Shown here piece by piece: positions 4,720 to 29,145 of a DNA stretch of 32,384 bases. Position numbers and translations under genes: made by a program. Each line of letters opens with the position of its first letter. Position 1 is the stretch's first letter. The notes below the pieces were generated by a model. That model had not been told where the DNA came from, did no database searches, and was given only the letters and a program-made list of their open reading frames with translations. This DNA comes from an uncultured Oscillospiraceae bacterium (GTDB taxonomy: Bacteria; Bacillota; Clostridia; Oscillospirales; Oscillospiraceae), in the NCBI GenBank assembly GCA_947630395.1, contig CANRHK010000004.1, positions 1 to 32,384 of the forward strand, in the 5' to 3' direction.

Positions 4720-6093
4720 ATGCTCCATATTGATACATTGATTCAGCACTACATCGCCCCCGGCCGGCGGGTCCATCTGTCCGGCATCGGCGGCGTCTCC
4801 ATGTCCCCCCTGGCCGAGGTACTCCACGGCATGGGCCTCCTGGTCCAGGGCAGCGACATGCATGAAAGCCCGGTGGTGGACCACCTCCGCTCCCTGGGCA
4901 TTCCCGTGGCCATCGGCCACTCTGGCCAGGCCATCCATGGCGCGGAGTTCCTGATCCGCACCGCCGCCATCCACGACGATAACCCGGAGATCACCACCGC
5001 CCGGGCCAATGGCATCCCCGTCTTCGAGCGGGCGGAGGCCTGGGGCGCCATCATGCAGCAGTATGAGAACGCCCTGTGTATCTCCGGCACCCATGGCAAG
5101 ACCACCACCACCTCCATGTGCACCCACATCTTCATGGCCGCCGGCCAGGACCCCACTGTCATGATCGGCGGCACCCTGCCCATGCTCCACAGCGGCTACC
5201 GGGTGGGCAAGGGCGACACCATCATCCTGGAGTCCTGCGAGTACCGCAACAGCTTTCTCTACTTCTTCCCCACCGTGGCGGTAGTGCTGAACGTGGGGGC
5301 CGACCACCTGGACTTTTTCAAGGATCTGGACGACATCAAGGCGTCCTTCCGCCGCTTTGCGGGGCTGGTGCCGCCGGACGGCCGGATTGTGGCCAACGCC
5401 GACGACCCCGGCGCCATGGACGCTCTCAAGGGCATGACGCTCTTCACCTTCGGCCTCTCGGAGGGCGCGGAGTGCCGCGCCGTGGACCTCACCTGGCATC
5501 AGGGCATGCCCGACTTCGACGTGGTGGTGGATGGGGAGTTCTACACCCACCTGTCCCTCCGCGTGCCGGGGCGGCACAACGTGTACAACGCCCTGGCCGC
5601 GGCAGCCGCCTCCTATGTGCTGGGTGTGAAGGGCGAGGCCGTAAGGGCCGGTCTGGCGGCTTTCTCCGGCACCGGCCGCCGCTTCGAGCACAAGGGCTCC
5701 TACCACGGCGCGGAGGTCTACGACGACTACGCCCACCACCCCGCCGAACTCCACGCCCTGCTGGAGACCGCCATGAGTCTGGGCTATGAGCGGGTGATCT
5801 GCGCTTTCCAGCCCCACACCTACACCCGCACAAAATCCCTCTTTGACGACTTCGTCCGGGAGATGAAGGTGCCGGACCTGGTGGTGCTGGCGGAGATCTA
5901 CGCCGCCCGGGAGCAAAACACCATTGGCATTTCCTCCGCCGATCTGGCGGCACAGATCCCAGGCAGTATCTTCTGCCCCACCCTCCAGGACACCGAGCGG
6001 GTGCTGCGGGAGACCGCCCGGCCGGGGGACTTGATTCTCACCGTCGGCGCGGGGGATATTTTCACTGTGGGGGAGAATCTGGTAAAAGGATAA
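4720..6093 (+). CDS. murC: UDP-N-acetylmuramate--L-alanine ligase
   Basis: VHLSGIGGVSMSPLAEVL, ISGTHGKTTTTSM, LESCEYRNSFLYFFPTVAVVLNVGADHLDFF, YDDYAHHPAEL. Confidence 0.95.
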   Translation: MLHIDTLIQHYIAPGRRVHLSGIGGVSMSPLAEVLHGMGLLVQGSDMHESPVVDHLRSLGIPVAIGHSGQAIHGAEFLIRTAAIHDDNPEITTARANGIPVFERAEAWGAIMQQYENALCISGTHGKTTTTSMCTHIFMAAGQDPTVMIGGTLPMLHSGYRVGKGDTIILESCEYRNSFLYFFPTVAVVLNVGADHLDFFKDLDDIKASFRRFAGLVPPDGRIVANADDPGAMDALKGMTLFTFGLSEGAECRAVDLTWHQGMPDFDVVVDGEFYTHLSLRVPGRHNVYNALAAAAASYVLGVKGEAVRAGLAAFSGTGRRFEHKGSYHGAEVYDDYAHHPAELHALLETAMSLGYERVICAFQPHTYTRTKSLFDDFVREMKVPDLVVLAEIYAAREQNTIGISSADLAAQIPGSIFCPTLQDTERVLRETARPGDLILTVGAGDIFTVGENLVKG

Positions 6094-6105
6094 GCCCACT
6101 TACAT

Positions 6106-6144
6106 TGGGTGCCCTGGGGCCGGAGGCCCCAGGCGCCCTTTTTC
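6106..6144 (+). terminator. Intrinsic terminator of murC
   Basis: GGGTGCCCTGGGGCC-GGA-GGCCCCAGGCGCCC followed by TTTTT. Confidence 0.85.
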
Positions 6145-6161
6145 TTCTTGCGGGAGGAAAC

Positions 6162-6301
6162 ATGTCAAACTGGTTTACCATCGAAGAAATCGACGGCGGC
6201 ACCTGGGCCATCAGCGAATACCGGCACTGGGAGGAGGCCCACAGCTACCTGCTCCTGGGGGCGGCGTGTTTGACTTCGGGGACTTTCAAATCCACATTTA
6301 A
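6162..6301 (+). pseudogene. Internally deleted MBL-fold metallo-hydrolase remnant
   Basis: MSNWFTIEEIDGGTWAISEYRHWEEAHSYLLLG is a typical MBL-fold N-terminus, interrupted at ~6260; in the adjacent frame GGVFDFGDFQIHI*(TAA 6299-6301) resembles a family C-terminus. Confidence 0.65.
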
Positions 6302-6326
6302 CTTTTCCCCCACGGGCGCATATACT
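6298..6326 (+). promoter_or_regulatory. Putative promoter for the SOD-like gene
   Basis: TTAACT (6298-6303) - 17 bp - TATACT (6321-6326), 31 bp before the ATG at 6358. Confidence 0.5.
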
Positions 6327-6357
6327 GGGTATATCATATCTGAGAAGGAGACTTGGA

Positions 6358-6990
6358 ATGAACCAGACTTTCCCCTTCCAGTCCGACGCACTGCCCTACA
6401 GCTACGCCGCCCTGATGCCCTACTGTGACGCCAACACCCTCTACTTCCACCACGACCAATACTACACCGACGCGGTGTACCGGCTCAACAAACTGGTGGT
6501 GGCCCACCGGCTCACCGGCCTGGATCTGCGCCAGCTCCTCACGGAGAAGATCGCCCTCCCGCCGGATCAGCTCAGCGTCCTCCGGGACACCGCCGGCCTG
6601 GTGTTCAACCACCAGTTCTACTTCGGCTGCGTCTGCACCGCCGCCGGCGCCCCGCCCATCAACCCCCTCACCCAGGCCCTCGTCACCACCTACGGCTCCA
6701 TCGACGCTTTCCGCCAGCTGATGGTGGAGGCGGCCCAGAGCGCCGTCGGCTCCAACTGGCTCTGGCTGGTCTCCGAGGGCCGGAAGGGGATCCACCTGGT
6801 GATCACCCCCAACAACTTGGCTGTGGATCTGAACTCCGTCTCACCCATCCTGGGGGTGGATCTGTGGGAGCACGCCTACTTCACCATGAACCACTTCGAT
6901 ATCGCCGCCTATGTCCGCTGCTGGTTCCGCTTCATCGACTGGGAGGCCGCCAACCGGCGGTATGAGGCCTCTCTCACAGCCTGGAAATGA
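6358..6990 (+). CDS. Divergent Fe/Mn superoxide dismutase family protein
   Basis: LPYSYAALMPYCDANTLYFHHDQYY, FNHQFYF, SNWLWLV, PILGVDLWEHAYF; four metal-ligand positions (H, H, D, H) retained. Confidence 0.85.
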   Translation: MNQTFPFQSDALPYSYAALMPYCDANTLYFHHDQYYTDAVYRLNKLVVAHRLTGLDLRQLLTEKIALPPDQLSVLRDTAGLVFNHQFYFGCVCTAAGAPPINPLTQALVTTYGSIDAFRQLMVEAAQSAVGSNWLWLVSEGRKGIHLVITPNNLAVDLNSVSPILGVDLWEHAYFTMNHFDIAAYVRCWFRFIDWEAANRRYEASLTAWK

Positions 6991-7020
6991 TTCTTCCTCC
7001 CTGATTTGGAGAAAATATAC

Positions 7021-7050
7021 TTGACAGACAACCCACCGGCGTGATATAGA
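7021..7050 (+). promoter_or_regulatory. Putative promoter for the DegV-family gene
   Basis: TTGACA (7021-7026) - 18 bp - TATAGA (7045-7050). Confidence 0.6.
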
Positions 7051-7122
7051 TGAGAAGGAAAAACTGCGGCATCACGCGCCGCCGGTACATCGTACATAAA
7101 ATGCTCGAAAGGACACCACCCC

Positions 7123-7986
7123 ATGGTCAAAATCAAAATTTCCAGCGACTCCACCGCCGACATTCCCCAAAACTACTGTGACGGGCTCGGCATCTCCGTC
7201 CTCCCTCTCACTCTCCTGTATGAAGGCAAGGAGTACCGGGACGGCATCGACATGACCCCCCAGGAGCTCTACAAGATTCTGGACTCCTCCGCCGAGCTGC
7301 CTGTCTCCGCCCAGGTGGCCTCTCACCTGTACACCGAGCTCTTTGAGGGGGCCTGGAGGGCCGGCTTCACCGACCTCATCCACACCTCCATCAACGCCAA
7401 GGGTTCCGGCACCTATCAGGCCGGGTGCATCAGCCGGGACATGTTCTACGAGGACCACCCGGAGGCAAAGGACAGCTTCCGCATCCACCTCATCAACTCC
7501 GGCACCTACTCCATGGGCTACGGCATCCCCGTCATCGAGGCCGCCCAAATGGTCCGGGAGGGCGCCCAGCCCGACGCCGTCATCGCGCATATCCGGGACT
7601 GGGTAGACCACGCCCGGCCCCTCTTCGTGCCCCTGAATCTGAAGTGCGTGAAGAAGTCTGGCCGCATCTCCCCCGCCGCCGCTTTCCTGGGGGACGCCAT
7701 CGGCCTGAAGCCCCTGATCACCTTCGAGGACGGCGAGGCCAAGATCATCGGCAAGGCCAGGGGCGAACACAAGGCCTACCAGGCCCTTCTGGACACCTGC
7801 CTCAGGGAGCGCAAGCCCGGCAGCAATTACGCCATCGTCTACGGCAACAACCAGGAGGCCTATGAAGCCGTCAGGGCCGCCTGCGCCGAAAAGATGGACC
7901 AGCCGCCCATGACGGAATATCATGTGGGCTGCGTCATCGGCATCAACACAGGCCCCAACATGGTGGGGCTGATCTATCGCCGGTAA
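7123..7986 (+). CDS. DegV family (fatty-acid-binding fold) protein
   Basis: KISSDSTADIPQNYCDGLGISVLPLTLLYEGKEYRDGIDMTPQELYKIL and TSSxxAK-like SINAKGSGTYQAG. Confidence 0.9.
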   Translation: MVKIKISSDSTADIPQNYCDGLGISVLPLTLLYEGKEYRDGIDMTPQELYKILDSSAELPVSAQVASHLYTELFEGAWRAGFTDLIHTSINAKGSGTYQAGCISRDMFYEDHPEAKDSFRIHLINSGTYSMGYGIPVIEAAQMVREGAQPDAVIAHIRDWVDHARPLFVPLNLKCVKKSGRISPAAAFLGDAIGLKPLITFEDGEAKIIGKARGEHKAYQALLDTCLRERKPGSNYAIVYGNNQEAYEAVRAACAEKMDQPPMTEYHVGCVIGINTGPNMVGLIYRR

Positions 7987-8005
7987 CCGCCGGCCGACAG
8001 CATGT

Positions 8006-8040
8006 AAAAAGAGCAGAGGCGCTCGCCTCTGCTCTTTTTT
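8006..8040. terminator. Bidirectional intrinsic terminator between convergent genes
   Basis: AAAAAGAGCAGAGGC-GCTC-GCCTCTGCTCTTTTTT near-perfect palindrome with A and T runs. Confidence 0.9.
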
Positions 8041-8053
8041 GCCGTTTTTGCCG

Positions 8054-10069
8054 TCAGTCAATGCCCAGCTGGATCCACAGGTCATTATAGAGCTTCCGCG
8101 TCTCCTGGGGCAGGCAGACGTACATCTCGCAGCGGTCCAGGACCTCGTCGGGGGCGGCCATGATCTCGTAGATCTCCGGATCCAGCTCCTCCTCGTACTG
8201 CTCCTCGTACCACGCCGGGTACTCCTCCAGGGCCTCCTTGTTGGGGCTGGCGTACCAGATGTAGTCCATGTTCCGCAGGTTGCACTCCTTGGAGGCCAAG
8301 AAGTTGATCCACTTCATGGCGTTGTCGAAGTGGGGCGCGTCCTTCAGCACGCACATGGCGTCCACGAACCAGTTGGAGCCCTCCTTGGGCACCACGAAGG
8401 CCAGGTCCTCGTTGTTCTCCAGCATGACAAGATAATCACCGGCGTAGTAGGTGGCGATGGCGGCGTTGCCGCCCTCCATGGTCTGGAACACCTCGTCCAT
8501 GACCTTGCCCTGGTACACACCCCGCCGGGCGGCGTCCTCAATGAGGGCGTATGCCTCCCGGATCTCCGCCTCGTCCGTGGTATTCACCGAGTAGCCCAGG
8601 TACATGAGGGCGATGCCCAGGGCGTCCCGGGAGTTGTTGATGAGCAGCACCTGCCCGGCGTACTTGTCGTCGTACAGGCAGGACCAGCTGTCGATCTCCT
8701 CGTCCACCATGGTGGTGTTGTAGATGATGCCCACGGTGCCCCAGGTGTAGGGCACGGTGTACTTGTTCTCCGGGTCGTAGGGCAGGTTCTTGAAGCGGTC
8801 GTCGATCTGGGAGAAGTTGGGGATCTGGCTGTAGTCCAGCTCCTCCAGCATATCCTCCTCAATAAGCTGGGAGATCATGTAGTCCGACGGTACCACCACG
8901 TCGTAGTCCGCGCCGCCGTTTTCCAGCAGGGAGTACATGGTCTCGTTGGAGTCGGTGGTCTGATAGTTGACCCGGATGCCGGTGGCCTCCTCGAACTCGT
9001 CGATCAGGTCCTCGTCGATATACTCGCCCCAGGAGCACACGTTCACCACCGGCTGGCTGGTGGTAAAGGCGGTCAGAGATACCACCGTCACCACAAAGGC
9101 CACGCAGGCCGCCAGGGCGGCGGCCCGGCGGAAGGCCCTCCCCCTCCGGGTGCCCAGCCACTCCCGTGCCTGCTCCACCCACCGGGGCTGGCGCACCGGT
9201 TCGAAGCTGGCCCGCTTCGCGGCGATCTTGGCCTGATGGGCCTCACGGATGTTGTTGATGACCAGAATGATCAGCACCGCCAGGAACATGAGGGTGGACA
9301 CCGCATTGATCACCGGCGTCACCCGCTTCTTGGTCATGCCGTAGATGGTCATGGCCAGGGTCTGGGTGGAGGATCCGGCGGTGAAGTAGGAGATGACGAA
9401 GTCGTCCACCGACATGGTGAAAGCGATCAGCGCGCCGGAGACGATGCCGGGCTTGATCTCCGGCAGAATCACCTTCCAGAACGCCTGCATCCATGTGCAG
9501 CCCAGGTCCTGGGCCGCATCCACCAGATTTCTGTCCATCTGGCGCAGCTTCGGCGCCACGTTCAGGATGACGTAGGGGATGTTGAAGCACACATGGGCAA
9601 TCAGCAGGGTCCCCAGGCCCAATGTCAGGCGGGTGGGCAGCTCCACGGCGCTCTGGACGCCGTTGAACCACCTGGCGAAGCCGCCCCAGCCATTGAAGAA
9701 CGCCACGAAGAACAGGCACAGGCTGACGCCGGTGACGATGTCCGCGTTCATCATGGGGATGTCGTTGACCACCAGGATGGGGTCCCGCCACTTCCGGGAC
9801 AGGCTGTAGATGCCGATGGCGGCGAAGGTGCCCGCCACGGTGGAGATAAGGGTGGCCAGCAGGGACACCAGCAGGGTGGTGGCCACGCTCTCAATCACCA
9901 ACCGGTTGTGGAACAGCTCCCCATACCACTTCAGGGAGAACCCCTGCCACACGGCGGAGGAGTCCCCGGCGTTGAAGGAGAAGAAGATCAGCAGGAAGAT
10001 GGGCAGATACAGGAACAGGAACACGAGGCCGATCAGGGCCCGGCCTCCGGCGCGGCGCTGCTTTCTCAT
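8054..10069 (-). CDS. Spermidine/putrescine ABC transporter: PotC permease fused to PotD substrate-binding protein
   Basis: N-terminal PotC permease (EAA-like loop AAQDLGCTWMQAFWKVILPEIKPGI), additional TM segment, then PotD domain (NVCSWGEYIDEDLIDEFEEATGIRVNYQTTDSNETMYSLL...) in one uninterrupted ORF. Confidence 0.92.
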   Translation of the reverse strand: MRKQRRAGGRALIGLVFLFLYLPIFLLIFFSFNAGDSSAVWQGFSLKWYGELFHNRLVIESVATTLLVSLLATLISTVAGTFAAIGIYSLSRKWRDPILVVNDIPMMNADIVTGVSLCLFFVAFFNGWGGFARWFNGVQSAVELPTRLTLGLGTLLIAHVCFNIPYVILNVAPKLRQMDRNLVDAAQDLGCTWMQAFWKVILPEIKPGIVSGALIAFTMSVDDFVISYFTAGSSTQTLAMTIYGMTKKRVTPVINAVSTLMFLAVLIILVINNIREAHQAKIAAKRASFEPVRQPRWVEQAREWLGTRRGRAFRRAAALAACVAFVVTVVSLTAFTTSQPVVNVCSWGEYIDEDLIDEFEEATGIRVNYQTTDSNETMYSLLENGGADYDVVVPSDYMISQLIEEDMLEELDYSQIPNFSQIDDRFKNLPYDPENKYTVPYTWGTVGIIYNTTMVDEEIDSWSCLYDDKYAGQVLLINNSRDALGIALMYLGYSVNTTDEAEIREAYALIEDAARRGVYQGKVMDEVFQTMEGGNAAIATYYAGDYLVMLENNEDLAFVVPKEGSNWFVDAMCVLKDAPHFDNAMKWINFLASKECNLRNMDYIWYASPNKEALEEYPAWYEEQYEEELDPEIYEIMAAPDEVLDRCEMYVCLPQETRKLYNDLWIQLGID

Positions 10070-22379: not shown

Positions 22380-22417
22380 ATATTGTGGTTCGTATTTCAG
22401 GAGAGAGAGAGAAACCC

Positions 22418-24877
22418 ATGACGCAGGATTTTGTCAATCGATACATCGCCGCCCGCAGGGCGGTCATCGCCCGCCGCTACAAGAGAATGAACCCCCGCCA
22501 GCTGGAGGCGGTGCTGGCCACCGAGGGCCCCCTGCTGCTGCTGGCCGGGGCCGGCAGCGGCAAGACCACCGTTCTGATCCACCGTGTGGATAACCTGCTG
22601 ACCTTTGGCCGGGGCAGCGACACCGGCGAGGTTCCCGACTGGGCCACGGAGGAGGACCTGCAATTTCTGGAGACCTTCCCCGACCAGCCCGCCCCGGAGG
22701 ACTGGAAGCGGGCCATCCGCCTCTGTGCGGTGGAGCCCGCCGCCCCCTGGTCGGTCATCGCCATCACCTTCACCAACAAGGCCGCCGGGGAGCTGCGGGA
22801 GCGGCTGGAGAAAATGTGCGGCCCCGCCGCCCACGACATCTGGGCCGCCACCTTCCACAGCGCCTGTGTGCGGATTCTCCGCCGGGACGTGGAAAAACTG
22901 GGCATCGGCCTGGACAGCCGCTTCACCATCTACGACACCGACGACAGCCGCCGGGTCATCCGGGACGTGGTGAGGGACATGGGCCTGAACGAGAAGGAGT
23001 TCCAACCCCGATCCGTCCTGGCCATCATCAGCCGGGCCAAGGACAGGGACAGGAGCCCCGACGAGTTCGCCCGGGACGCCCGATCCTCCCACGACTGGCG
23101 CCTGCCCCGTATCGCGGAGATCTACGCCGGCTACCAGCGCCGCCTGCTGGAGGCCAACGCCGTGGATTTCGACGACATTGTCCGCTACGCCGTCCACTTG
23201 CTGCGGCAGGACGAGGAGGTCCGGGCCCACTATCAAAGGAAATTCCGCTATGTGCTGGTGGACGAGTACCAGGACACCAACTACCTCCAGTACCAGCTCT
23301 CCCGTCTGCTGGCGGGGGGCTATGAGAACCTCTGCGTGGTGGGCGACGACGACCAGTCCATCTACCGCTTCCGGGGGGCGGACCTGGAGAACATCCTCAG
23401 CTTTGAGAAGCAGTACCCCGGCTGCCGCACCATCCGGCTGGAGCAGAACTACCGCTCCAGCCAGAACATCCTGGACGCCGCCAACGCGGTCATCAAGAAC
23501 AACGTGGGCCGCAAGGGCAAGAACCTCTGGACCCGGAGCGGGCCGGGGGATAAGGTGCTGGTGCGCACCGTCACCAGCGAGAGCGACGAGGCCAACTTTG
23601 TGGCCGGGAAGATTATGGAGTCCTTCGGCCGGGGCGGCCACTGGCGGGACAGCGCGGTGCTCTACCGCATGAACGCCCAGTCCAACGCCCTGGAGATGGC
23701 CCTCAAGCGCAACGGCGTGCCCTATAAGGTCTACGGCGGCATGAAGTTCTTCGACAGGGCCGAGGTGAAAGACATGCTGGCCTACCTCTGCGTGGTGAGC
23801 AACAGCGCCGACGACCTGCGCCTGCGGCGCATCATCAACGTGCCCGCCCGGGGCATCGGCCCCACCACCGTGGAGAAAGCCGCCCAGATCGCCGCCCGGG
23901 AGGAGACAAGCCTCTATGACGTAATGCACCGGGCGGGGGAGTACCCGGCGCTGAAAGCCGCCGGCGGGCGGCTCCAGGCGTTTACCGCTCTCATTGCCGA
24001 GCTGCGGGCTCTGGCGGAGAGCATGGAACTGCCGGACTTCTACGACGCGGTGTGTGAGAAGACCGGGTACGTGAAAGCCCTGGAGGAGAAGAACGACATG
24101 GAGAGCCGGGGCCGGCTGGAGAACGTGCGGGAGCTGCGATCCAGCATCATCGGCTTCCTGGAGACGGATCCGGAGGACGCGTCCCTGGCGGGCTTTTTGG
24201 ACAGCGTGGCCCTGTACACCGACCTGGACGACGCGCCGGAGAACGGCGACTGTGTCTCCCTCATGACCATCCACAGCGCCAAGGGCCTGGAGTTCCCCAA
24301 CGTCTACGTGGTGGGCATGGAGGAGGGCGTCTTCCCGGGCACCCGGGCCATAGGGGAGCCGGAGGACATGGAGGAGGAGCGCCGCCTGTGCTACGTGGCC
24401 ATGACCCGGGCCAAGGAGCGCCTTGTCATGACCGCCGCCCGGCAGCGGATGCTCTATGGCCGCACCAGCAACAACCCGCCCTCCCGCTTCCTGGAGGAGC
24501 TGCCGGAGGATCCCATCCTCTGGCAGGGCAAGGAGCAGGCCCCGGCCCGCGGCAGCTGGGACAGCGGCAGCAGCTGGAGCGGCAGCGCTTTCGGCAGGAC
24601 CGACTCCACCGCGCCCGGCAAGGAGCGCCCCGCCGCCGTCCGGCCCCAGCGCCCCCGCCGCGTCTGGAACAGCGGCTATACCGCCCCCGCCGCCCATACC
24701 GCGCCGCTATTGCAGCTCCAGGGGGGCGACGCCGTCCGCCACCGGACCTACGGGGAGGGGATGGTGCTGTCCGTGCGGCCTATGGGCAACGACGCCCTCG
24801 TGGAAATCGCCTTCAACGGCGTGGGCACCAAGCGGCTGATGCTGCGCTCCGCCGGGGAGCATCTGACAAAATTATAA
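22418..24877 (+). CDS. pcrA: ATP-dependent DNA helicase, UvrD/PcrA family
   Basis: LLLLAGAGSGKTTVLIHRVDNLL, AITFTNKAAGELRERL, VDEYQDTNYLQYQLSRLL, VVGDDDQSIYRFRGAD, LMTIHSAKGLEFPNVYVVGMEEGVFP. Confidence 0.93.
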   Translation: MTQDFVNRYIAARRAVIARRYKRMNPRQLEAVLATEGPLLLLAGAGSGKTTVLIHRVDNLLTFGRGSDTGEVPDWATEEDLQFLETFPDQPAPEDWKRAIRLCAVEPAAPWSVIAITFTNKAAGELRERLEKMCGPAAHDIWAATFHSACVRILRRDVEKLGIGLDSRFTIYDTDDSRRVIRDVVRDMGLNEKEFQPRSVLAIISRAKDRDRSPDEFARDARSSHDWRLPRIAEIYAGYQRRLLEANAVDFDDIVRYAVHLLRQDEEVRAHYQRKFRYVLVDEYQDTNYLQYQLSRLLAGGYENLCVVGDDDQSIYRFRGADLENILSFEKQYPGCRTIRLEQNYRSSQNILDAANAVIKNNVGRKGKNLWTRSGPGDKVLVRTVTSESDEANFVAGKIMESFGRGGHWRDSAVLYRMNAQSNALEMALKRNGVPYKVYGGMKFFDRAEVKDMLAYLCVVSNSADDLRLRRIINVPARGIGPTTVEKAAQIAAREETSLYDVMHRAGEYPALKAAGGRLQAFTALIAELRALAESMELPDFYDAVCEKTGYVKALEEKNDMESRGRLENVRELRSSIIGFLETDPEDASLAGFLDSVALYTDLDDAPENGDCVSLMTIHSAKGLEFPNVYVVGMEEGVFPGTRAIGEPEDMEEERRLCYVAMTRAKERLVMTAARQRMLYGRTSNNPPSRFLEELPEDPILWQGKEQAPARGSWDSGSSWSGSAFGRTDSTAPGKERPAAVRPQRPRRVWNSGYTAPAAHTAPLLQLQGGDAVRHRTYGEGMVLSVRPMGNDALVEIAFNGVGTKRLMLRSAGEHLTKL

Positions 24878-24987: not shown

Positions 24988-25488
24988 ATGATGAAGCGTT
25001 TTGTGAAATTCCTGGCCCCAATGCTGGTGCTGGTTCTGCTCCTCACCGCCTGCGGCGGCAACAGCGGCGGCGACAGTGGCGCCCAGGCCCCCGATCTGAC
25101 CAAGTACTACGAGGACTACATGGCGTCCCTGGGGGAGGGCAACGCCCCGATGATGATGGATCTCACCGAGGACGAGGGGCTGATGGGCACCTACTATCCC
25201 GGCCTCACAGACGTGGAGACCAAGCAGCTGGTGGTGCGGATGCCCGCCATCACCGGGCAGGCCTTTGAGTTCGCCCTGGCCGAGGCGGCGGACGCCGACG
25301 GCGCGAAGACCGTTGCGGATATCTTCCAGAACCGCATCGACAGCCAGATGAGCGACACCATGATGTACCCCGCCACCATGGAGGCGTGGCAGGCCGCCAA
25401 GGTGATCACCCACGGCAATGTGGTGGCCCTGATTGTCGCCGGCGAGGGTATGGAGGACGCCGTCCCCACGTTTGAGGCCCTGTTTTAA
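24988..25488 (+). CDS. Short lipoprotein, DUF4358-like
   Basis: Lipobox VLLLTACGG; C-terminal domain similar to the lipoprotein at 28111-29145; RBS GGAGG. Confidence 0.75.
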   Translation: MMKRFVKFLAPMLVLVLLLTACGGNSGGDSGAQAPDLTKYYEDYMASLGEGNAPMMMDLTEDEGLMGTYYPGLTDVETKQLVVRMPAITGQAFEFALAEAADADGAKTVADIFQNRIDSQMSDTMMYPATMEAWQAAKVITHGNVVALIVAGEGMEDAVPTFEALF

Positions 25489-25503
25489 GAGAAAATGAAT
25501 GGC

Positions 25504-25527
25504 GGGGCAGCTCTCCTGGGCTGCCCC
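25504..25527 (+). other. Intergenic stem-loop in the acyltransferase cassette
   Basis: GGGGCAGC-TCTCCTGG-GCTGCCCC perfect 8-bp stem, no U-run immediately after. Confidence 0.6.
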
Positions 25528-25570
25528 CTGTCCGGTTTTGAGAGACATAAAAGAGAGGTAAGGGCCGCCT

Positions 25571-26956
25571 ATGATTTTCTCCGACCTGCCGTTCCTGTTC
25601 TTCTACATCATGACCTGCCTGCTGGTCTACAAGATTGCGCCCCTGAAGCTGCGCAATCTGGTGCTGCTGATCTTCAGCCTGTTCTTCTACGGCTGGGGCG
25701 AGCCGGTGTACATCCTTATCATGTTCTTCTCCATCGCCGTCGACTACACCCACGGCATGCTGGTGGAGAAGTGGCGCAGCAACGACAGGCGAGCCAGGGC
25801 CGTGGTGGCCTCGTCCGTGATCTGCAACCTGGGGCTGCTGGTGTTCTTCAAGTACTGGGACTTCCTGATGACCAATATCAACGCCCTCACCGGCCTCGGC
25901 CTGCCGGTGCTGGGCCTGTCCCTGCCCATCGGCATCAGCTTCTACACCTTCCAGACCATGAGCTACACCATCGACGTCTACCGCCGGGACGCCCCGGCCC
26001 AGAGGAATCCGGTCACCTTCGGCGCCTATGTGACGCTGTTCCCCCAGCTCATCGCCGGCCCCATCATCCGCTACAAGTCCGTGGCGGACCAGCTGGAGAG
26101 CCGCAGTGAGAATCTGGAGAAATTCACCGCCGGTATCCGCCGCTTCACGGTGGGCATGGCCAAAAAGGTGCTTCTGGCCAACGCCATTGGCCAGTTGTGG
26201 GACGCGGCCAAGGGGACGGAGGAGCTGACGGTGGCCATGGCCTGGCTGGGCATCGCCGCCTACGCTTTCCAGATCTACTTCGACTTCTCCGGCTACAGCG
26301 ACATGGCTATCGGCCTGGGGAAGCTGTTCGGCTTCGACTTCCTGGAGAACTTCAACTACCCCTACATCTCCAAGTCCGTGGTGGAGTTCTGGAAGCGGTG
26401 GCACATCTCCCTGACCACCTGGTTCCGGGAATATGTGTACTTTCCCCTGGGCGGCAACCGGGTGCCAAAGTGGAAGTGGATCCGCAACATCCTCACTGTC
26501 TGGATCCTCACCGGCGTCTGGCACGGGGCCGGGTGGAACTTCCTGTTCTGGGGCCTCTACTACGCGGTGTGGATGCTGGCGGAGCGGATGTTCCTGGGCA
26601 AGTGGCTGGAGAAGCTCCCCAATGCGCTGCGGCACATCTACACCATGGCCATCGTGCTGGTGGGCTGGGCCCTCTTCGACCTCACGGACCTGCGCCAGCT
26701 GGGGAGCTATCTGCTGACCATGTTCGGCCAGGGGCGGCTCTGGAGCGCCGGGACCGGCTACTATCTGCGCAGCTACCTGCCCATGCTGGTGATTCTGACC
26801 GCGGCCTCCACACCCCTTGGAAAGCGGGTGTGGGCCAAGCTGGGGGAGAGAACCCAGGCCATTCTGGAGCCCCTGCTGGTGCTGGGAGCGCTGGTGCTCT
26901 GCACCGCCTCCCTGGTGGACGCCAGCTACAACCCGTTCCTCTATTTTCGTTTTTAA
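25571..26956 (+). CDS. MBOAT family O-acyltransferase (AlgI/DltB-like)
   Basis: Multi-TM; LFPQLIAGPIIRY, YAFQIYFDFSGYSDMAIGLGKLFGFDFLENFNYPYISKSVVEFWKRWHISLTTWFREYVYFPLGGNR, GVWHGAGWNFLFWGLYY. Confidence 0.93.
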   Translation: MIFSDLPFLFFYIMTCLLVYKIAPLKLRNLVLLIFSLFFYGWGEPVYILIMFFSIAVDYTHGMLVEKWRSNDRRARAVVASSVICNLGLLVFFKYWDFLMTNINALTGLGLPVLGLSLPIGISFYTFQTMSYTIDVYRRDAPAQRNPVTFGAYVTLFPQLIAGPIIRYKSVADQLESRSENLEKFTAGIRRFTVGMAKKVLLANAIGQLWDAAKGTEELTVAMAWLGIAAYAFQIYFDFSGYSDMAIGLGKLFGFDFLENFNYPYISKSVVEFWKRWHISLTTWFREYVYFPLGGNRVPKWKWIRNILTVWILTGVWHGAGWNFLFWGLYYAVWMLAERMFLGKWLEKLPNALRHIYTMAIVLVGWALFDLTDLRQLGSYLLTMFGQGRLWSAGTGYYLRSYLPMLVILTAASTPLGKRVWAKLGERTQAILEPLLVLGALVLCTASLVDASYNPFLYFRF

Positions 26957-26969
26957 GGAGGTGTGTGAC

Positions 26970-28070
26970 ATGACGAAACGAGTATCCCAGTGGGCCACGG
27001 CCATCCTCTTCTGCGGCTTTCTGACCCTGTTCGGCGTGCTGCACATCGTACTGCCCGACAGGGAGTTCTCCCCGGTGGAGAACCGGACGCTGGCCCAGTT
27101 CCCGTCTTTCAGCTGGCGGGCCCTCCGGGAGGGGGACTTCACCGCCGGTCTGGAGAAGTATCTGGCGGACCAGTTCCCCCTGCGGGACAGCTGGATCGGG
27201 CTCAAGACCCGGTATGAGTGGCTGCTGGGCAAGCGGGAGTTCCACGACGTGTACCTCTGCGGCGACGTGCTGATCTCCAAGATCACCGACACCAGCCGGG
27301 CGGAGAGCGGCCTGGGCTACATCAAGAAGCTGGCGGACAAGACGGACATTCCCGTCTACGTGGGCCTCATTCCCACGGCGGCGGAGATCTGGCGGGACAA
27401 GCTGCCGGCGGGCGCGCCGTCTTTCGACCAGCTGGCCTATCTGGACGAGGCGAAGGCAGCCGGCGGAAACTGGGTGGACATGTACGGCGCACTCGACCCC
27501 CACGCGGAGGAGCGGATCTACTACGCCACCGACCACCACTGGACCAGCCTGGGGGCCTACTACGGCTACACCGCCGTGGCGGAGGCCATGGGCTTTACCC
27601 CGGCCCCCCTGGGGGAGGCCACGGTGGCCTCCGACCAGTTCTACGGCACCCTCTACTCCACCTCCGGCGTCCACTGGCTGGGGCCGGAGACCATCGAGCG
27701 CTACCGTGACAGCGAGGGCATTACGGTGGAGGACCCGGTGAAGGGGGAGACCCACGGCCTCTACGTGGACAGCTACCTCAGCGAGAAGGACAAGTACTCC
27801 TCCTTCATGGGCGGCAACACGCCCCTCTATATTGTGACAAACCCCAGCGCCGCCTCCGGCGAGACGCTGCTGGTGGTGCGGGACAGCTACAGCGACAGCC
27901 TGGCCCCCTTCCTCACGGACCTGTTTCAGGAGATCCACCTGATGGATCTCCGCTACAACCGGCAGTCTGTGGCTCAGTACGCCGAGAGCATCGGCGCGGA
28001 TCGGATCCTGGTGTGTTATAGCGTGGAGAACTTCGTCAAGGATGCGGATACCGTCTTTCTGGGGCAGTAA
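26970..28070 (+). CDS. DHHW family protein (AlgJ/AlgX/DltD-like partner of MBOAT)
   Basis: N-terminal TM; YYATDHHWTSLGAYYGY motif; LVVRDSYSDSLAPF (DS motif). Confidence 0.88.
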   Translation: MTKRVSQWATAILFCGFLTLFGVLHIVLPDREFSPVENRTLAQFPSFSWRALREGDFTAGLEKYLADQFPLRDSWIGLKTRYEWLLGKREFHDVYLCGDVLISKITDTSRAESGLGYIKKLADKTDIPVYVGLIPTAAEIWRDKLPAGAPSFDQLAYLDEAKAAGGNWVDMYGALDPHAEERIYYATDHHWTSLGAYYGYTAVAEAMGFTPAPLGEATVASDQFYGTLYSTSGVHWLGPETIERYRDSEGITVEDPVKGETHGLYVDSYLSEKDKYSSFMGGNTPLYIVTNPSAASGETLLVVRDSYSDSLAPFLTDLFQEIHLMDLRYNRQSVAQYAESIGADRILVCYSVENFVKDADTVFLGQ

Positions 28071-28110
28071 CCGCGGGGAACTCCCCATACGACAGAAAGG
28101 AAACGAAGTG

Positions 28111-29145
28111 ATGAAAAAGATATTTTCCCTCCTCCTGGCGCTGGCCCTGGTGCTGAGCCTCGCGGCCTGCGGCGGCGGGAATCAGAACGCCGGCGGCAAC
28201 AACAATGGCGGAAACAATCAGCAGCAAAGCGATACCAACGGCGGCAACAGCCAGAAGGACCCCGCCGGCAATAGCGGCGGCGGCCAGACCCCCGGCGACA
28301 ACGATGGCGACAGCGATGACAGCCAGACTCCCGGCGACGGCGGTGGAGAGGGAGCCAATCCCGGCGGCGCGATCATCCCCAAGCCGGACGGCGGCGGGGA
28401 CGGTTCCGGCGGGGAGCAAAACCCCGGTGAGGGGGAGACGAAGCCCCCGGCCGTGGAGCTCAACTACACAGATATCACCCTCCGGAAGGAGGGGGAGACC
28501 CTCCGGCTTCAGCCACAAGGCCTGACGGGGGCCTACGCCGGCGAGTATACCAGCAAGGACGAGGCCGTGGCGACGGTGGACGCGAACGGCACCGTCACCG
28601 CCGTGGCCCCCGGCACCACCACGGTCACGATCCACGTGGAACACGAGAGCGGCCAGTACGACTTCACCTGCATCGTCCGCTGCAAGTGGGAGAAGGCCCC
28701 GGAGTCCCAGGAGAAGCCCGATCCCCGGCCGCCGGCAGCCGGCGCCCCCTCTGTCAGCGACTTTTTCGCCACCCTCTCTCAGAGCTACGACGGCGTGAGC
28801 AGTCTGGCCGCCGTGGAGGGCGAGGTGCTGGAGGCGAAGTATCCCGGCCTGGCCTCCGCCGCCGGTGTGGAGCAGGTGCTGGTGATGGAGCCGGTGATCA
28901 GCATGTCCTCGGTGGCTGTCGCGCTGGTGAAGCTGTCCGACAGCGCCTCGGCCTCGGATGTCCAGGCGGTGAAAGCCATCCTCCAGGGGCGAATTGACCA
29001 GCAGGCGGCGGGCGGCGCCTACTACCCCGCAGCCATGGAGATATGGGGCCAGGGCAAGGTGGTCTCCACCGGGAAATATGTGGGTATGTTTGTCCACAGC
29101 AGCGCCCAGTCCATGGCGGACCTCTTTGCCTCCACCTATGGTTAA
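28111..29145 (+). CDS. Long-armed lipoprotein: low-complexity linker, Ig-like (BIG2-type) domain, DUF4358-like C-terminus
   Basis: Lipobox LSLAACGGG, ~95-aa G/N/D/P-rich linker, DEAVATVDANGTVTAVAPGTTTVTIHVEH (BIG2-like), C-terminus paralogous to 24988-25488. Confidence 0.8.
   Translation: MKKIFSLLLALALVLSLAACGGGNQNAGGNNNGGNNQQQSDTNGGNSQKDPAGNSGGGQTPGDNDGDSDDSQTPGDGGGEGANPGGAIIPKPDGGGDGSGGEQNPGEGETKPPAVELNYTDITLRKEGETLRLQPQGLTGAYAGEYTSKDEAVATVDANGTVTAVAPGTTTVTIHVEHESGQYDFTCIVRCKWEKAPESQEKPDPRPPAAGAPSVSDFFATLSQSYDGVSSLAAVEGEVLEAKYPGLASAAGVEQVLVMEPVISMSSVAVALVKLSDSASASDVQAVKAILQGRIDQQAAGGAYYPAAMEIWGQGKVVSTGKYVGMFVHSSAQSMADLFASTYG

Follow-up and report, generated by a model that had tools for sequence, protein, structure and literature searches.

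DUF4358 lipoproteins beside a PatA/PatB1-like acyltransferase pair in a candidate surface-acylation cassette of an uncultured Oscillospiraceae bacterium

What do two lipoproteins of a family without assigned function contribute to the acyltransferase pair that they flank? The question is raised by a four-gene cassette in the genome of an uncultured Oscillospiraceae bacterium (GCA_947630395.1), at positions 24988-29145 of the 32,384-nt stretch of contig CANRHK010000004.1 analysed here, which we call the window. All on the + strand, the genes encode a short DUF4358 lipoprotein, an MBOAT protein, a DHHW/SGNH protein and a long Big_2+DUF4358 lipoprotein, an order that an original prediction, made from the letters alone, had given and that open reading frames (ORFs) and Pfam bear out. 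Our overall explanation, which we hold to be probable, is a surface-polymer acylation machine in which the DUF4358 lipoproteins would act as non-catalytic docking partners of SGNH enzymes. MBOAT-SGNH acylation is already known; new are its coupling to DUF4358 and the operon GDSL-DUF4358-MBOAT-DHHW. Neither this operon nor DUF4358 as a conserved or fused component was found in the mostly open-licence literature searched, so a prior description is possible; within the open-licence part DUF4358 occurs only as an incidental entry in the proteomics table of one paper and PF14270 is not mentioned, subscription journals and preprints lying mostly outside the search. The single paper in which MBOAT and GDSL are named alongside operons and Firmicutes deals, judging by title and abstract, with eukaryotic enzymes.

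The two lipoproteins and the pair between them

Both lipoproteins have a signal peptide and a lipobox (LTAC in the short, LAAC in the long), and both pass the Pfam profile of DUF4358 (PF14270, cut-off 25 bits), as the original prediction had suspected. The short protein (166 aa, 24988..25488, +) scores 47.1 bits (E 3.1e-12), with its lipobox Cys codon at 25051-25053 and the DUF4358 envelope at 25156..25437. The long one (344 aa, 28111..29145, +) consists of a disordered linker, a Big_2 Ig-like spacer (28489..28644; PF02368, E 4.4e-10), which had been missed, and a DUF4358 domain at 28861..29094 that scores 26.0 bits (E 1.2e-5). The C-terminal similarity visible by eye is real: aligned directly, the two share 35% identity over 85 residues (BLASTP E 3e-9), and they are paralogues within the DUF4358 family. 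An AlphaFold 2 (AF2) model of residues 34-166 of the short lipoprotein predicts an alpha/beta fold for DUF4358 (predicted local distance difference test, pLDDT, 96.3; predicted TM-score, pTM, 0.90). In the model of the long lipoprotein the linker (about residues 17-107) lies mostly under a pLDDT of 50, and Big_2 (about 121-191) and DUF4358 (about 215-343) lie mostly around 90.

The MBOAT O-acyltransferase (461 aa, 25571..26956, +; PF03062, cut-off 27 bits, 91.8 bits, E 6.5e-26) contains a predicted catalytic His in VWHGAGW (codon 26522..26524), a role known from PatA and DltB (PMC12148441), and ends in NPFLYFRF, the hexapeptide FLYFRF (26936..26953) being an exact match to the acyl-shuttle motif FXYXXF. 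PatA acylates itself on the Tyr of this hexapeptide, from which the group moves on to the SGNH protein, whereas in Dlt the same motif is carried by a separate microprotein, DltX (PMC12148441). Both FXYXXF and the WHG histidine occur in every MBOAT found among our best 80 named relatives, all Oscillospiraceae (Oscillibacter, Dysosmobacter, Flavonifractor, Pseudoflavonifractor, Intestinimonas and Lawsonibacter), a sample that leans towards the window's clade, having been drawn with an alignment of DHHW proteins linked to DUF4358.

The neighbouring DHHW-family SGNH acyltransferase (366 aa, 26970..28070, +; PF14286, cut-off 25 bits, 118.2 bits, E 6.7e-34) has an N-terminal signal anchor and matches the ALGX profile as well (40.9 bits, E 2.5e-10). 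Aligned with 20 relatives, D188, H189, H190, S306, D326 and R328 are invariant and W191 and Y329 nearly so, residues that make up the DHHW motif (block V, codons 188-191, 27531..27542), the predicted catalytic Ser306 in RDSYSD (27885..27887), which in the alignment falls on the DS of PatB1 from Bacillus cereus, and the block II DXRY motif, here DLRY (27945..27956). Blocks V and II are family motifs described for PatB1 (PMC9487903), and PatB1 is also the best PDB match of the window protein (5v8d, E 5.8e-19; 4nzk, E 1.4e-18).

On the MBOAT side the profile match, the WHG His, the protein's own FXYXXF and the adjacent extracytoplasmic SGNH protein agree with the PatA/AlgI type, and on the DHHW side the profile, block V, block II and catalytic Ser agree with PatB1-like proteins. 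With all testable catalytic motifs present and the DltB cut-off missed, the pair is best classed, by sequence, as a PatA/PatB1-type MBOAT-SGNH acyltransferase and not as Dlt. The MBOAT matches DltB chains in the PDB (E about 3e-25), and a Dlt system was considered and rejected: the MBOAT reaches 156.9 bits against the 375 of the NCBIfam DltB equivalog (TIGR04091), and its shuttle peptide sits on the MBOAT itself rather than on DltX. The original prediction was thus right to see an MBOAT-SGNH acylation pair, but among characterised proteins B. cereus PatB1 stands closest, ahead of the AlgJ and DltD of the layouts that it had cited. It was also right about the tight spacing, with gaps of 82 nt between short lipoprotein and MBOAT, 13 nt between MBOAT and DHHW and 40 nt between DHHW and long lipoprotein; the MBOAT stop region, TAAGGAGG, touches the ribosome-binding site of the DHHW gene.

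DUF4358 as a companion of SGNH enzymes

Non-homologous lipoproteins or a lack of conserved linkage would, by its own terms, have told against the original prediction; it withstood both checks, and the linkage proved far above chance. Outside the window's family, 24 of 30 DUF4358 places sampled across the class lie within 6 kb of a same-strand DHHW gene, with about 0.14 expected by chance, and among 19 DUF4358 loci from other classes of Bacillota 14 have MBOAT and DHHW (8 of them with GDSL as well), 4 have GDSL alone and the remaining one neither; the MBOAT, DHHW, GDSL and transglutaminase-like (TG) search profiles behind our counts were built from the same loci as counted, and key cases were confirmed with Pfam. 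The typical operon, GDSL-DUF4358-MBOAT-DHHW, is found in eight class loci (L259, L260, L262, L265, L267, L269, L270 and L271). Fusions tell the same story. Behind the MBOAT gene of three genomes (L254, at 5786-8251, -; L255; L256) one ORF, 767-822 aa long, unites DHHW, GDSL and DUF4358, each of the three domains confirmed by Pfam, and in two other genomes, at L257 and L258, the gene behind MBOAT-DHHW joins DUF4358 to an ALGX/DHHW-like SGNH domain (by Pfam in L257, by our own profile in L258). GDSL is in turn fused to DHHW at L278, in another class. In 81 of 81 GDSL sequences the catalytic Ser, Gly, Asp and His are unchanged (Asn in 80 of 81), suggesting that the enzymatic work sits in the SGNH partners. 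Gene order and independent-looking fusions make it well supported that DUF4358 is a phylum-wide companion of SGNH enzymes. At L272 a separate transglutaminase-like gene (7733-8929, -) occupies the GDSL position before DUF4358-MBOAT-DHHW.

Within the window's own family DUF4358 is present in 60 and DHHW in 85 of the 101 genomes surveyed, and 33 of 124 listed DHHW loci, spread over 31 of the 56 genomes with both, have DUF4358 within 6 kb, nearly always about 2.4 kb upstream, one MBOAT gene away, and in the same orientation. Starting from DUF4358 instead, 125 loci were inspected and an MBOAT lay in the region at 28, nearly all of these ordered DUF4358-MBOAT-DHHW. DUF4358 is directly 5' of the MBOAT in 56 of the 80 best named relatives, while in 15 of the 80, each with more than 1.5 kb of upstream sequence, its place is taken by other genes, for example for recombinases or a uridine kinase. 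A cultivable carrier is Flavonifractor plautii ATCC 29863 (L203). The partners of 130 family DUF4358 ORFs are GDSL only (61), MBOAT and DHHW (24), MBOAT, DHHW and GDSL (5), MBOAT only (1), MBOAT and GDSL (1), a transglutaminase-like domain by fusion (13) or in the neighbourhood (1), or none of these (24). GDSL stays close, 69 of 71 matches in family regions lying at most 300 bp from the DUF4358 gene, 65 of them with DUF4358 downstream on the same strand. In this family the GDSL-DUF4358 half is usually elsewhere in the genome. So it is in the window's own genome, where, judging from genome searches and individual contigs, contig C31 (L016) has a GDSL-DUF4358 pair and contig C17 a fusion of DUF4358 with a transglutaminase. 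Secreted lipoproteins with DUF4358 N-terminally fused to Transglut_core, the own genome included, were seen at L017 (5052-6281, -), L172, L134, L148 and L149. The same genome has an orphan DUF4358 lipoprotein on the short contig C163 (L019:3152-3685, -), from which MBOAT, DHHW and GDSL are absent.

A tree of the DUF4358 domain (195 rows, 102 columns, few forks resolved) groups the domains by gene context, requiring 16 changes of context against 84.5 when contexts are shuffled. Those fused to Transglut_core form a separate branch, and the orphan of C163 falls in the MBOAT-linked part. The short and long lipoproteins of the window lie in different parts, the short copy with other short copies (87, not starred) and the long copy with long forms from L175, L176 and L182 (100, starred), other long copies forming a separate group. 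In a fast MBOAT tree with some long branches, the window MBOAT belongs to a clade of 12 rows (100, starred), all with DUF4358, and four more MBOATs from the same genome, these without DUF4358, lie close to the base or outside. Two further MBOAT-DHHW pairs of this genome, on the short contigs C202 (L021) and C154 (L020), are without DUF4358 on those contigs, and their MBOATs fall outside the DUF4358-linked subfamily of this tree.

The original prediction had two paralogous lipoproteins bracketing the pair. The bracket is real here and in close relatives: a second DUF4358 gene lies downstream of DHHW in L168 (which shares a contig with L181), L173, L175, L176, L178 and L179, and the arrangement is present in part in L182. 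As a conserved unit it was rejected, being confined to the window's clade and missing from L143, even though it is of the same genus, and from L174, L177 and L180, none of which has the long DUF4358 copy downstream of DHHW. Short and long forms are nevertheless combined more than once, flanking MBOAT-DHHW in the window, L168/L181, L173, L175, L176, L178 and L179, as an upstream tandem in L153 and as one double-domain protein in L160. We read the bracket as a local duplication, with two DUF4358 units per MBOAT-DHHW pair a recurrent but optional feature. The conserved unit is instead DUF4358-MBOAT-DHHW, classically joined by a second SGNH enzyme, the GDSL protein, which lies outside this window. 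The predicted short arm and long arm fit the disordered linker and Big_2 domain of the long lipoprotein and the recurring short and long combinations, the role in acylation given to such arms staying conjectural.

Promoter and terminator scans gave results near chance and were uninformative. Directly upstream of the cassette lies a PcrA/UvrD helicase gene (window 22385-24877), with a related helicase upstream in close relatives such as L173; this is a conserved neighbourhood in which a functional link is not evident. Two long antisense ORFs, of 766 codons (22397-24697, -) and 628 codons (25406-27292, -), run over the helicase and MBOAT genes and look like by-products of high GC codon usage, not genes.

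What DUF4358 may do outside the membrane

From the homology, motifs, linkage and fusions we infer a scheme in which the MBOAT would take up an acyl group on the cytoplasmic side, probably acetyl supplied by acetyl-CoA, attach it to the Tyr within its C-terminal FXYXXF and present it outside the membrane. There Ser306 of the DHHW protein would accept it for transfer to an acceptor polymer, a wall or capsular polysaccharide. The membrane-tethered DUF4358 lipoproteins would dock on the SGNH enzymes, either holding the exocytoplasmic complex together or bringing the acceptor polymer to it. Most other lineages would use one DUF4358 per complex of MBOAT, DHHW and GDSL as the second SGNH enzyme; in the window's lineage the GDSL-DUF4358 half is located elsewhere in the genome, and the MBOAT-DHHW half would have gained two DUF4358 copies, the first near the membrane, the second held out on a long Ig-like arm. 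That DUF4358 might be an acyl carrier in the manner of DltX was also considered and rejected, as the MBOAT has its own FXYXXF. The best-supported reading, by analogy, is that of a non-catalytic coupling subunit, which may act as AlgF does with a different predicted fold; AlgF mediates between the SGNH proteins AlgJ and AlgX, is non-catalytic and binds no alginate (PMC10641220). The bolder proposal that DUF4358 is a Bacillota-wide, structurally unrelated AlgF counterpart, assembling MBOAT, DHHW and GDSL into an unrecognised four-component machine of which the window holds a derived two-copy form, is tentative, and we stop a little short of calling it probable.

Some observations weigh against a docking subunit. 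A clade of 12-13 close MBOAT-DHHW pairs is mostly without a nearby DUF4358, which is therefore not strictly needed in cis. A Foldseek search of the DUF4358 model against 350,542 PDB chains gave no significant match (best E 0.086), so mechanism and function cannot be read from the structure, and the DUF4358 profile found chance matches only among PDB sequences. The transglutaminase-like fusions, too, argue for a general binding or targeting module over an adaptor restricted to SGNH enzymes, and lead to the main rival explanation, in which DUF4358 is a polymer- or wall-binding module, similar to a carbohydrate-binding module (CBM), that brings a number of unrelated surface enzymes to one common ligand. 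The range of its partners, MBOAT-DHHW, GDSL and, by fusion, Transglut_core, would fit such a module, as would the long form on its Big_2 arm and the few residues kept across all contexts (one Glu in 95%, Tyr-x-Pro in 88/94% and one Gly in 94%). We nevertheless consider it rather unlikely, given that SGNH enzymes are at the centre of the fusions and operons and that the tree sorts the domains by their partner enzyme, suggesting co-evolution with the enzyme rather than a shared ligand.

Dedicated de-O-acetylases are known from systems that O-acetylate peptidoglycan, and the GDSL_2 proteins, with their intact catalytic Ser-Asp-His, could likewise be O-acyl esterases opposing the DHHW enzyme, DUF4358 then regulating the balance of acyl addition and removal. 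Sequence cannot separate a hydrolase from a transferase here. The DHHW-GDSL-DUF4358 fusions and the DHHW-GDSL fusion of L278 resemble sequential or cooperating transfer, as in AlgJ/AlgX, and we regard an esterase as possible, if on the unlikely side. That the acyltransferase modifies the lipoproteins themselves, for instance at exposed residues or at the N-terminus, is very improbable: they are adjacent, exported and sometimes duplicated, and extracellular lipoprotein acetylation has reportedly been seen in Bacillus, yet a substrate fused in cis to its transferase (L254-L256) or to transglutaminase-like domains would be hard to explain. An ordinary MBOAT-SGNH pair with lipoproteins as chance neighbours might be argued from the 91 of 124 family DHHW loci without DUF4358 within 6 kb and from the bracket missing in a same-genus genome, but it is already refuted by the class-wide linkage statistics, the recurrence across the phylum and the five fused ORFs, and we give it practically no weight. 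Docking on SGNH enzymes thus remains the role that we favour, and with it DUF4358 gains from linkage and fusions its first concrete, testable role. Many gut Bacillota may then have in common a machine for surface acylation that has more components than the two proteins of the PatA/PatB model, which would be relevant to lysozyme and to immune recognition of commensals.

Comparison with known acylation systems

The teichoic acid D-alanylation system DltB/DltD/DltX has the acyl-Tyr MBOAT-SGNH relay in common with the cassette, and the window MBOAT aligns with DltB structures; in Dlt the shuttle is on DltX and the partner is DltD, in the window the shuttle is on the MBOAT and the partner is DHHW. 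PatA/PatB of Gram-negative peptidoglycan has the same MBOAT catalytic His, C-terminal FXYXXF acyl-Tyr shuttle and neighbouring SGNH transferase, although PatB belongs to another SGNH family (DUF459/PatB). We know of no DUF4358-like partner described for it. PatA1/PatB1 of B. cereus, which O-acetylates the secondary cell wall polysaccharide, likewise pairs an MBOAT with a DHHW protein, and its PatB1 has block V, the DXRY of block II and the nucleophile in DS in common with the window protein. It differs in being described, in the passages of PMC9487903 consulted, without DUF4358 or GDSL partners. The Clostridial cellulose locus also has an MBOAT/DHHW pair, CcsH/CcsI, proposed to O-acetylate an exopolysaccharide; it is tied to the ccsZAB cellulose synthase operon, whereas the window cassette has no synthase, and the paper that describes it (PMC7710045) mentions a lipoprotein 0 times.

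In number of roles the counterparts are AlgI/J/F/X of alginate and WssH/I/G/F of cellulose, each with an MBOAT, two SGNH proteins and one mediator without catalytic function (AlgF in alginate), the same count as MBOAT, DHHW, GDSL and DUF4358. AlgF consists of two beta-sandwich domains (PMC10641220), against the predicted alpha/beta fold of DUF4358, which is thus no member of the AlgF family, and the second SGNH enzyme is a GDSL_2 protein in DUF4358 systems, against AlgX with its CBM in the alginate system. Relatives of the window have two SGNH proteins per MBOAT, GDSL and DHHW; at the window locus DHHW stands alone, and C31 of the same genome carries a GDSL-DUF4358 pair.

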